Part shown: in pieces, positions 19,709-21,261 of the stretch
Layout of the letters: the number at the start of each line of letters is the position of its first letter
How positions within the stretch are numbered: position 1 is the first letter of the stretch
DNA from: Calothrix sp. MO_192.B10
Lineage (GTDB): Bacteria > Cyanobacteriota > Cyanobacteriia > Cyanobacteriales > Nostocaceae
Reading direction: 5' to 3'
Assembly: GCA_030065055.1 (NCBI GenBank)
Contig: JASJDS010000001.1
Location: forward strand, 1-64,000
Length of the DNA: 64,000 bases
Position numbers and translations under genes: made by a program
The notes under the pieces: model-generated
What the model was told of the DNA's origin: nothing
Seen by the model: only the letters and a program-made list of their open reading frames with translations
Databases searched by the model: none

Positions 19709-19808
19709 GTCCAGGTCGCCTAACGGTAGGGTGTTGGTCTGCAAAACCGATTGTGCGAGTACCCTTCGGGAAGCCGCTTTGCGTCTACAATTCTCGCCCT
19801 GGACTCCA
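19709..19808 (+). tRNA. tRNA-Cys (GCA) with 27-nt repeat in the T-loop
   Basis: Acceptor GTCCAGG / CCTGGAC, anticodon loop CTGCAAA (GCA), T-stem GCGAG / CTCGC, CCA at 19806-19808. The T-loop is 33 nt instead of 7 (19760-19792): T, 27 inserted bases (19761-19787), then CAATT. The insert forms CCC-TTC-GGG and CGC-TTT-GCG mini-hairpins around AAGC. It is the only Cys gene seen in the window. Confidence 0.85.
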
Positions 19809-19813
19809 AACGT

Positions 19814-19886
19814 TGCAGTGTCACCTAATGGCTAAGGTACTCGGCTCATAACCGGGGATATGTGGGTTCAATTCCCACCACTGCTA
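19814..19886 (+). tRNA. tRNA-Met-type (CAT)
   Basis: Anticodon stem-loop CTCGG-CTCATAA-CCGGG, T-arm GTGGG-TTCAATT-CCCAC. The first acceptor pair is T-T (mismatch), as in initiators, but the anticodon stem lacks the initiator GGG/CCC pairs. CAT could also be a lysidine-modified Ile tRNA; unresolved. Confidence 0.8.
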
Positions 19887-19892
19887 TCAAAT

Positions 19893-19963
19893 GCAGGGAT
19901 GGTGTAATGGCAACATCGCAGTCTCCAAAACTGTTGTTCTGGGTTCAAATCCTAGTCTCTGCG
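19893..19963 (+). tRNA. tRNA-Trp (CCA), array copy
   Basis: Acceptor GCAGGGA / TCTCTGC, anticodon stem-loop GCAGT-CTCCAAA-ACTGT, T-loop TTCAAAT. It differs strongly from the housekeeping Trp gene at 11630. Confidence 0.9.
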
Positions 19964-19967
19964 TTGT

Positions 19968-20044
19968 GGTGCTGTAGGCAAATTGGTAAAGCCACCTGTC
20001 TTTCAAGCAGGAGATTGCGGGTTCAAGTCCCGTCAGCACTGCCA
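19968..20044 (+). tRNA. tRNA-Glu (TTC)
   Basis: Acceptor GGTGCTG / CAGCACT (first pair G-T), anticodon loop CTTTCAA (TTC), T-loop TTCAAGT, CCA at 20042-20044. Confidence 0.9.
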
Positions 20045-20048
20045 ACAT

Positions 20049-20547
20049 GGGTCGGCTCACCTATTGGCGTGGGTAACTGTCTTTGACATACTCCCACGAA
20101 TAGAATTCGTGGGATTCTGGGATACTGGCGTAGACAGCAGGAGAACCCGTCTTACATCTACTCTCCCACCAGACAATGCCCTGCCTGGTTGGATTACTCC
20201 AAGCAACCAGAACTGGTTTTTTTTCTTCAGGTCTGCCAGACTATGAGAGTCCCGGATTTTACCCCTGGCGACTCAGATTTTCCCAGTTAAACTGGACAGA
20301 CTACGACTTCTCGGTACGTTTGAAGTTTTACTCAACCAACTTCTGATTGAAACCCCATACTCCAAGTGTGTTGTCAGACTTGCATATATTCTATCACGGC
20401 GGATAAATCCGCGCTGCTCCACATCCCACACCTCAAGGACGCAGCAAGGTAAATCTTCAAGGGATTTACCTTGCTACTCGTGGGCTTTGCGCTAAATTTT
20501 GTAAAACAGCCGCGATCGCATTGTAGGTTCAAATCCTACTCGACCCA
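20049..20547 (+). tRNA. tRNA-Gln (TTG) split in the anticodon loop by a ~420-bp insertion
   Basis: The 5' half (20049-20086) has acceptor GGGTCGG, a D-arm and anticodon stem ACTGT with loop start CTTTGA. The 3' half (about 20505-20547) resumes with ACAGC, T-arm GTAGG-TTCAAAT-CCTAC and acceptor TCGACCC. The acceptor halves pair over all seven positions and the anticodon stems over four of five. The interruption falls within the anticodon loop. Unless the insert is removed the gene is inactive; an intact Gln(TTG) gene follows at 20977. Confidence 0.75.
20087..20504 (+). mobile_element. IS200/IS605-like non-coding insertion inside tRNA-Gln
   Basis: It begins after TTTGA with CATACTCCC, followed by the perfect hairpin CCCACGAAT-AGA-ATTCGTGGG (20093-20113), the pattern of IS200/IS605 left ends; a second left-end-like sequence is at 61151. 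The right side, with GGGCTTTGCGCTAAATTTTGT, weakly resembles the right ends at 39745, 50011 and 61318. No TnpA or TnpB frame is present. Group I and group II intron cores were not seen. Confidence 0.6.
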
Positions 20548-20551
20548 TTAC

Positions 20552-20641
20552 GGAGAGGTGGCTGAGTGGCTTAAAGCGTCCTCCTGCTAAGAGGAAGCGG
20601 GTAGTTAATGCCCGTCGAGGGTTCAAATCCCTCCTTCTCCG
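20552..20641 (+). tRNA. tRNA-Ser (GCT)
   Basis: Acceptor GGAGAGG / CTTCTCC, anticodon stem-loop TCCTC-CTGCTAA-GAGGA, long variable arm GCGGGTAGTTAATGCCCGTC, T-loop TTCAAAT. A proper class II tRNA. Confidence 0.92.
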
Positions 20642-20646
20642 TTTAT

Positions 20647-20720
20647 GAGAACGTGGTGTAACTGGATAACACGTCAGTCTACGAAACTGAAGAGTGAAGG
20701 TTCAAGTCCTTCCGTTCTCG
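20647..20720 (+). tRNA. tRNA-Arg (ACG)
   Basis: Acceptor GAGAACG / CGTTCTC, anticodon stem-loop TCAGT-CTACGAA-ACTGA, T-loop TTCAAGT. A34 would need TadA deamination to inosine. Confidence 0.92.
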
Positions 20721-20726
20721 CTTTAA

Positions 20727-20799
20727 CCCCCGGTAGCTCAGTTGGTAGAGTGCCTGTTTGAAAAACAGGAGGTCGTCAGTTCAATACTGACCTGGGGGA
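20727..20799 (+). tRNA. tRNA-Phe (GAA)
   Basis: Acceptor CCCCCGG / CTGGGGG, anticodon stem-loop CCTGT-TTGAAAA-ACAGG, discriminator A. Confidence 0.92.
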
Positions 20800-20808
20800 C
20801 TGGCACAT

Positions 20809-20884
20809 TGCCCTATAGCTCAACTGGCAGAGCGAGCGGCTGTTAACCGCGAGGTTGCAGGTTCGATTCCTGCTGGGGCAGCCA
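20809..20884 (+). tRNA. tRNA-Asn (GTT)
   Basis: Acceptor TGCCCTA / TGGGGCA, anticodon loop CTGTTAA, T-arm GCAGG-TTCGATT-CCTGC, CCA at 20882-20884. Confidence 0.92.
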
Positions 20885-20889
20885 TTTAT

Positions 20890-20964
20890 TGCCGAGTGGA
20901 CGAATTGGTAGAGTCACCTGTCTCTGAAACAGGGGTTTTGTAGGTTCAAACCCTACCTCGGCAG
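20890..20964 (+). tRNA. tRNA-Gln (CTG)
   Basis: Acceptor TGCCGAG / CTCGGCA, anticodon stem-loop CCTGT-CTCTGAA-ACAGG, T-arm GTAGG-TTCAAAC-CCTAC. Confidence 0.9.
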
Positions 20965-20976
20965 CTAAATCTACAA

Positions 20977-21050
20977 TGGGGAGTCGCCTAATCGGTATGG
21001 CACCGCTCTTTGAAAGCGGAAAAATATAGGTTCGAGTCCTATCTCCCCAG
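20977..21050 (+). tRNA. tRNA-Gln (TTG), intact
   Basis: Acceptor TGGGGAG / CTCCCCA, anticodon stem-loop CCGCT-CTTTGAA-AGCGG, T-loop TTCGAGT. It would make the split Gln gene redundant. Confidence 0.92.
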
Positions 21051-21083
21051 TTCTATTCAATAAGAATAGATAAGCCAAATCAT

Positions 21084-21157
21084 GCTGCTGTAGCCCAACT
21101 GGAAGAGGTGCTGGTCTTAGAAACCAGAGGTTGTGGATTCAACTCCCACCAGCAGTA
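21084..21157 (+). tRNA. tRNA with Leu anticodon (TAG) but a short variable loop
   Basis: Acceptor GCTGCTG / CAGCAGT, anticodon stem-loop CTGGT-CTTAGAA-ACCAG, variable region only about 5 nt, discriminator A. Bacterial tRNA-Leu are class II with a long variable arm, so this is structurally atypical. Confidence 0.75.
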
Positions 21158-21161
21158 CTAT

Positions 21162-21261
21162 CCGGGTGTGGTGTAGTTTGGCAGTATTCCTGTTTTGGGA
21201 ACAGGCGGTCGTAGGTACTCTGCGAGAAGCCGCTCCGCGTCTACAAATCCTACCACTCGAA
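21162..21261 (+). tRNA. tRNA-Pro (TGG) with 27-nt repeat in the T-loop
   Basis: Acceptor CCGGGTG / CACTCGA (first pair C-A), anticodon stem-loop CCTGT-TTTGGGA-ACAGG, T-stem GTAGG / CCTAC. The T-loop is 33 nt (21216-21248): T, 27 inserted bases (21217-21243), then CAAAT. The insert is homologous to that in tRNA-Cys, with stems CTC-TGC-GAG and CGC-TCC-GCG. Confidence 0.85.

Follow-up and report, generated by a model that had tools for sequence, protein, structure and literature searches.

A very small dispersed repeat replaces one T of the T-loop in tRNA genes of a Calothrix trn array and recurs in T-loops of other genomes

Small dispersed repeats, SDR1 to SDR8, were reportedly described in Nostoc by Elhai et al. 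in 2008. They are said to be 21–27 nt long and to occur in many dispersed copies that share a common structure with compensatory changes in the stems. They reportedly also enter tandem repeats and copies of themselves, and are said to be confined to one coherent group of cyanobacteria. To our knowledge, how repeats shorter than 30 nt move is an open question. The group I intron of cyanobacterial tRNA-Leu(UAA) is likewise an insert in a cyanobacterial tRNA gene; it is self-splicing, far longer than the inserts described here, and located in the anticodon loop. YrlA-type Y RNAs contain a tRNA-like module and adjoin a Ro60/Rsr gene.

According to PMC4390886, SDR5 inserts into HIP1 at one exact position. 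REP/RAYT elements resemble the repeat described below in being short palindromic dispersed repeats, and REP elements are characterised in PMC3733652 as GTAG-tagged palindromes with one stem of mostly 6–9 bp. The trn operon of Anabaena PCC 7120 is a long tRNA array that is extra to the housekeeping tRNAs, and a repression motif for TrcR was reported to lie over its −10 box (PMC10272220). Both of these features recur in the window, by which we mean the whole 64,000-nt stretch of Calothrix sp. MO_192.B10 DNA that was analysed: it contains a long array of tRNA genes, with the TrcR-type site TGTAGTAT over the −10 box of a promoter-like sequence (Table 1). The combined promoter and TGTAGTAT pattern matched once in the window and 0 times in 100 shuffles. 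The difference from the Anabaena operon is that two of the tRNA genes are split by repeats. Similar arrays occur on 14 plasmid records, which make up 14 of the 15 best matches to the whole array; ARAGORN found an intact Pro(TGG) gene in all 14 and an intact Cys(GCA) gene in 9 of them.

The T-loop of the window's tRNA-Cys gene (19760-19792) reads T + 27 nt + CAATT and that of its tRNA-Pro gene (21216-21248) T + 27 nt + CAAAT, so that each is 33 nt long and resumes after the insert with C56-R57-A58. The inserts have GAAGCCGCT and GCGTCTA in common, and their first hairpins are CCC/GGG in one and CTC/GAG in the other. An earlier examination of these letters, hereafter the sequence-only reading, had described the same 27-nt repeat at the same T-loop position in both genes, including the shared motifs. 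We find this to be correct, with the refinement that the net gain relative to an ordinary 7-nt T-loop is 26 nt, since one T (T55) is replaced by the insert. ARAGORN called neither of the two genes in the window, and the interrupted Cys gene still scored in the Rfam tRNA search.

Table 1. Positions of the features discussed (window coordinates unless another locus is named)
Feature	Position	Strand	Remarks
Promoter-like TTGACA-N17-TAGTAT overlapping TrcR-type site TGTAGTAT	19442..19470	+	sequence pattern
Long tRNA array (trn operon)	19549..22074	+	ARAGORN: 22 tRNAs, plus two interrupted ones
tRNA-Cys(GCA) gene, T-loop interrupted	19709..19805	+	42.8 bits in whole-genome Rfam tRNA search; tRNA call after flanks joined
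27-nt SDR-type repeat replacing T55 of tRNA-Cys	19761..19787	+	
tRNA-Pro(TGG) gene, T-loop interrupted	21162..21261	+	ends by eye; tRNA call after flanks joined
27-nt SDR-type repeat replacing T55 of tRNA-Pro	21217..21243	+	
Third repeat copy, 31 nt, second hairpin lengthened	28514..28544	+	within CACTCCYT tandem repeats
tRNA after Trp in other arrays	L036 1036-1107; L040 874-945; L043 959-1030; L130 2609-2680		

Some other properties of the arrays were observed as well. Another array tRNA (window 20049-20547), at the place that tRNA-Tyr has in other arrays, also seems split. Its insert is several hundred nt long and starts near GACATACTCCCACGAATAG, and the acceptor halves match by eye (GGGTCGG / CGACCC). 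The contig that bears the array also carries solitary genes for tRNAs Trp, Lys, Phe, Lys, Leu and Pro (window 11629-11702; G000 C99:67564-120470), so that it may belong to the chromosome and not to a plasmid. In the array tRNA that follows Trp the anticodon varies between arrays, being either CTA (amber) or CTT, which makes it a possible suppressor tRNA.

The genome-wide count of the repeat that the sequence-only reading had suggested gave 62 matches to the core GAAGCCGCTNNGCGTCTA in the 7.76-Mb assembly, compared with 0 for the reversed pattern, so the repeat shared by the Cys and Pro genes is not due to chance. Our listing of the copies in this genome covers 61 of the 62 places, two rows being the same Cys site, and of the 52 copies that were measured 43 are 27 nt and nine 28 nt long. 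The repeat consists of two 3-bp hairpins with TA...TA flanks. A looser search, in which only the end letters, AAGC and TCTA were fixed, returned 145 copies with 51 distinct sequences in the loci examined. The hairpins covary: among these 51 sequences all pairs of hairpin 1 form in 47, its middle pair being C-G in 28 and T-A in 21, and hairpin 2 is also fully paired in 47, its middle pair being G-C in 42 and A-T in six. The covariation of the first stem that had been noticed in the two tRNA genes thus extends to the larger set. The third copy, for which an enlarged stem CGCTC/GAGCG had been described, is present as well and this stem is still paired. It is an example of tandem repeats acting as hosts, and in locus L083 one copy of the repeat is nested in another, at the TTC in the loop of that copy's hairpin 1.

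These properties indicate that the inserts are copies of a mobile repeat of the SDR type, dispersed and very small. Size, dispersal, compensatory stems, tandem-repeat hosts and nesting, the reported features of the Nostoc SDRs, are all found here. The apparent differences are the target, which is TTCR and frequently part of a hairpin loop, the replacement of one T, and the repeated hits in the T-loops of tRNAs and Y-RNA-like genes. The repeat may be SDR4. Searches of the literature other than Elhai et al. 2008, on small dispersed repeats or SDR4 in Nostoc and in connection with tRNA or Y RNA, found no T-loop insertion in the titles and abstract openings. Whereas REP elements have a single stem (PMC3733652), the repeat has two hairpins of 3 bp each. 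A filled site, read as its reverse complement, starts with GTAG, which resembles the REP tag, but here the G belongs to the target. Of 13 genomes that have the element pattern, 7 contain RAYT matches above the cut-off, as do 4 of 7 that lack it, and weaker matches occur in all 20; there is no association among these 20 genomes, and RAYT was dropped as a candidate mobiliser. Carriage by phages was rejected after a search of viral contigs gave 0 exact matches.

The change that the insertion makes can be read from tRNA-Leu(CAA) orthologues that share the same neighbour gene. The empty site is GTGGG-TTC-GATT and the filled site GTGGG-T[27]C-GATT. Insertion turns TTC into T[27 nt]C, by which T55 is replaced and the net gain is again 26 nt. 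The core element is present in three of the 14 plasmid arrays, each time in the T-loop of another tRNA (Ser(TGA), Leu(CAA) and Arg(TCT)), and T55 is gone in all three. The same change of TTC to T[27]C agrees with what is seen in the CACTCCTTCACTCC hosts and at further sites outside tRNAs. TTC is followed by R in 24 of 25 context clusters, and the target of entry is TTCR.

Among 388 genomes of the order, 16 had matches to a search pattern anchored in the T-loop, at 22 sites in total and with 0 matches for the reversed control; the pattern also matched 30 stretches in the genome_contigs collection. Judged by record titles the matches in that collection are mostly from Nostocales, and include Leptolyngbya, Cyanosarcina and a contig of a Gracilibacteria MAG. 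This last contig (L073 1-500) has a T-loop-like copy plus a HIP1-like GCGATCGC site, so that it is perhaps a misbinned cyanobacterial contig. After the flanks had been joined, 47 of 60 distinct T-loop-context sites were called as tRNA, a count in which only identical flanks were merged while the two genome collections may share species. Of the 47, 46 are spread across 20 named isoacceptor types and one is without an assigned amino acid. Five were found via arrays (the two in the window and those in three plasmid arrays), and the searches behind the other 42 set no condition on arrays. Inspected by eye, the 13 uncalled sites are three Y-RNA-like ones (L054, L063, L136), the ambiguous L073, six sites in arrays and three non-tRNA sites admitted by the loose pattern (L150 twice, L151).

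The frequency of T-loops among the targets was estimated from a sample drawn without regard to tRNA context. Twenty genomes of the family yielded 83 copies ending in C, of which 30 are in this genome; the other 53, from 12 genomes, were all read, and nine are in tRNA T-loops. ARAGORN called eight of the nine, and the one left is the counterpart, within a duplicated array, of a site that it did call. Four of them are two sites that occur twice in a duplicated array, so that the nine represent about seven separate events. T55 is absent in all nine, in a search whose pattern left the base before T free. The window has 961 TTCR sites in its 64 kb, counted on both strands; with this density and about 60 T-loops per 7 Mb, the share of T-loops expected by chance is well below one of the 53 copies. 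Statistically, tRNA T-loops are greatly over-represented among the targets of the repeat.

Genes that only resemble tRNAs are entered as well. In L063 the repeat lies in a tRNA-like gene directly upstream of a gene for a TROVE/vWA-Ro60 protein, and two modules of this cluster match Rfam tRNA. L136 has it in a tRNA-like gene that is similar to that of L063 by eye, together with a second gene with a shortened insert, and L054 is assigned as Y-RNA-like from its flanks only. The tRNA-like genes of these loci resemble Y RNA genes of the YrlA type, two features of which, the tRNA-like module and the Ro60 neighbour, are present in L063. Both L063 (5100-6120) and L136 (1500-2400) show a cluster of several tRNA-like genes in which a long insertion occupies the middle and the T-arm is of the tRNA type. 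The sites in L054, L063 and L136 had at first looked like tmRNA, a reading that was dropped: L063 and L136 contain tRNA-like genes, which in L063 adjoin the Ro60 gene, and a search of the three genomes with RF01851 was empty, the control also remaining below the cut-off. A gene identified by eye as tRNA-Glu(TTC) in L056 (680-1000) carries the repeat in its T-loop and a second, 24-nt element or relative in its anticodon loop, also at TTC.

Outside tRNAs, the targets often open a hairpin loop, which one of two tests supports. Minimum free energy (MFE) folding of ±30 nt around the reconstructed sites of this genome placed 6 of 19 clusters in hairpin loops, compared with 928 of 3000 TTC controls, and gave no excess. 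The local-stem test, which was devised after this negative result, found a strong flanking stem in 11 of 22 non-tRNA context clusters against 12.2% of 2123 control TTCR sites from the same loci (P 1.7e-5 at 12, the lower of two thresholds); a threshold-free Mann-Whitney comparison gave P 2e-4. The CACTCCTT hosts, which are the largest context cluster (15 copies), form no hairpin. In view of the order of the tests and these unpaired hosts, a preference for hairpins is probable, not proven. The sequence-only reading had proposed a structured mobile repeat that targets T-arm hairpins. This is supported in part: the repeat is structured and dispersed and has entered T-arms many times (9/53 copies; 20 isoacceptor types), and an extension to hairpin loops elsewhere is backed by the second test but not by the first.

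We consider it likely that these sites result from insertion of a very small mobile repeat, guided by sequence and probably by structure, and tolerated in redundant tRNAs. A neighbouring possibility, which overlaps with this and differs solely in the role given to structure, is that the element reads the short sequence TTCR alone and that T-loops are struck for containing TTCR in expendable DNA. The entry into CACTCCTT repeats without a hairpin and the negative MFE test would agree with that. We nevertheless regard it as unlikely, since 961 TTCR sites in a window of 64 kb face about 60 tRNAs per genome and yet 9 of the 53 copies are in T-loops. Furthermore, 22 of the 44 TTCR sites of the window array have the T-loop form, yet all placed copies in array tRNAs are in T-loops, with the reservation that some of the loci behind this placement were drawn by the T-loop pattern.

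The distribution of the interrupted genes bears on their fate. Each of the 47 recognised interrupted tRNAs is accompanied by two or more tRNA genes within 800 nt, and there is no solitary gene among them. In this genome, where the redundancy of array tRNAs was checked, 40 of at least 60 tRNA matches lie outside the array (150 of 485 candidates scored). The search for uninterrupted counterparts that the sequence-only reading had proposed located an intact Cys(GCA) gene at C9:5707 and an intact Pro(TGG) gene at C99:120397. The confinement of interrupted tRNAs to clusters, with intact copies elsewhere, suggests that insertion costs function, and a gene without a normal T-loop probably yields no working elongator tRNA. 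The opposite view, that the interrupted tRNAs still work and keep the insert as an extension of two hairpins on the T-loop, possibly just under translational stress that induces the trn operon, seems to us improbable, although several observations speak for it. In stems and sequence the interrupted genes are conserved to the same degree as the intact tRNAs of the arrays. No excess decay was detected (mismatch marks 1.19, n=47, against 1.39 in 473 intact tRNAs of the same loci, P 0.38), and identity within the Leu-CAA group, in pairs that are not independent, exceeded the median of the intact neighbours in 23 of 34 cases, equalled it in two and was lower in nine. This good pairing and conservation make the interrupted genes unlike pseudogenes. 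In addition, the Leu(CAA) insertion is found in nine array loci, which include at least two pairs of near-identical arrays (one interrupted Leu(CAA) copy, in L040, is from Nostoc sp. PCC 7524), and the promoter and TrcR-type site of the window are intact by sequence. Against function are the loss of T55 in 9/9 sampled T-loop copies and 3/3 plasmid arrays, the absence of solitary tRNA genes among the recognised cases (0/47) and, weakly, the MFE folds of the two window tRNAs, which are not cloverleaves. The folds are weak evidence because the folded stretches were short by 1-4 end bases per side and the joined Pro gene, free of its insert, did not give a cloverleaf either.

Removal of the insert from the transcript, as a new kind of tRNA intron, had also been raised in the sequence-only reading and would suit the common position in many tRNAs and the covarying structure. 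It is nonetheless very improbable: T55 is replaced, so no contiguous excision gives back the TTC that the empty orthologues have. Reasoning from the junctions, contiguous excision of 26 nt would leave TAC and excision of 27 nt a 6-nt loop. The same repeat is also present in non-tRNA contexts genome-wide, and no solitary tRNA was seen to have it. A single original insertion that was passed on from one array tRNA to others through gene conversion or the shuffling of arrays, as might be suspected from the identical junction in all, the exchange of segments between arrays and a (near-)identical Leu-CAG unit in otherwise differing arrays, is hardly credible, because each tRNA species has its own stems and loops around the insert, with 20 isoacceptor types affected. 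In the only alignment made, that of Leu-CAA, the flanks match the empty orthologue. The element has moreover entered Y-RNA-like genes and an anticodon loop, and non-tRNA sites obey the same junction rule.

Guided insertion into redundant tRNAs, which we prefer, could proceed as follows. The insertion machinery would act on a folded single strand, either an ssDNA hairpin or an RNA that is subsequently reverse transcribed. TTCR at the start of the loop would be the entry point, where one T is replaced. The T-arm (G-TTCRA) would be a near ideal target that is present in many copies. Insertions would persist in the trn operon because its genes come on top of the housekeeping tRNAs and, in Anabaena, are silent in standard culture; selection would remove them from the housekeeping tRNAs themselves. 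More specifically, and here we are tentative, the 27-nt element may recognise a folded T-arm-like hairpin (RNA or ssDNA), enter the loop-opening TTCR and replace one T, in which case tRNAs and Y RNAs could be its natural landing pads.

The target is defined (TTCR, of which one T is replaced and which probably opens a hairpin loop), and together with the pairs of filled and empty orthologues this makes the mobility of such repeats testable at the bench. The insertions also mean that tRNA finders can miss array genes, as ARAGORN missed both here. Finally, they provide a natural set of T-loop-disrupted tRNAs with which it can be probed whether the stress-induced trn operon needs every one of its genes.
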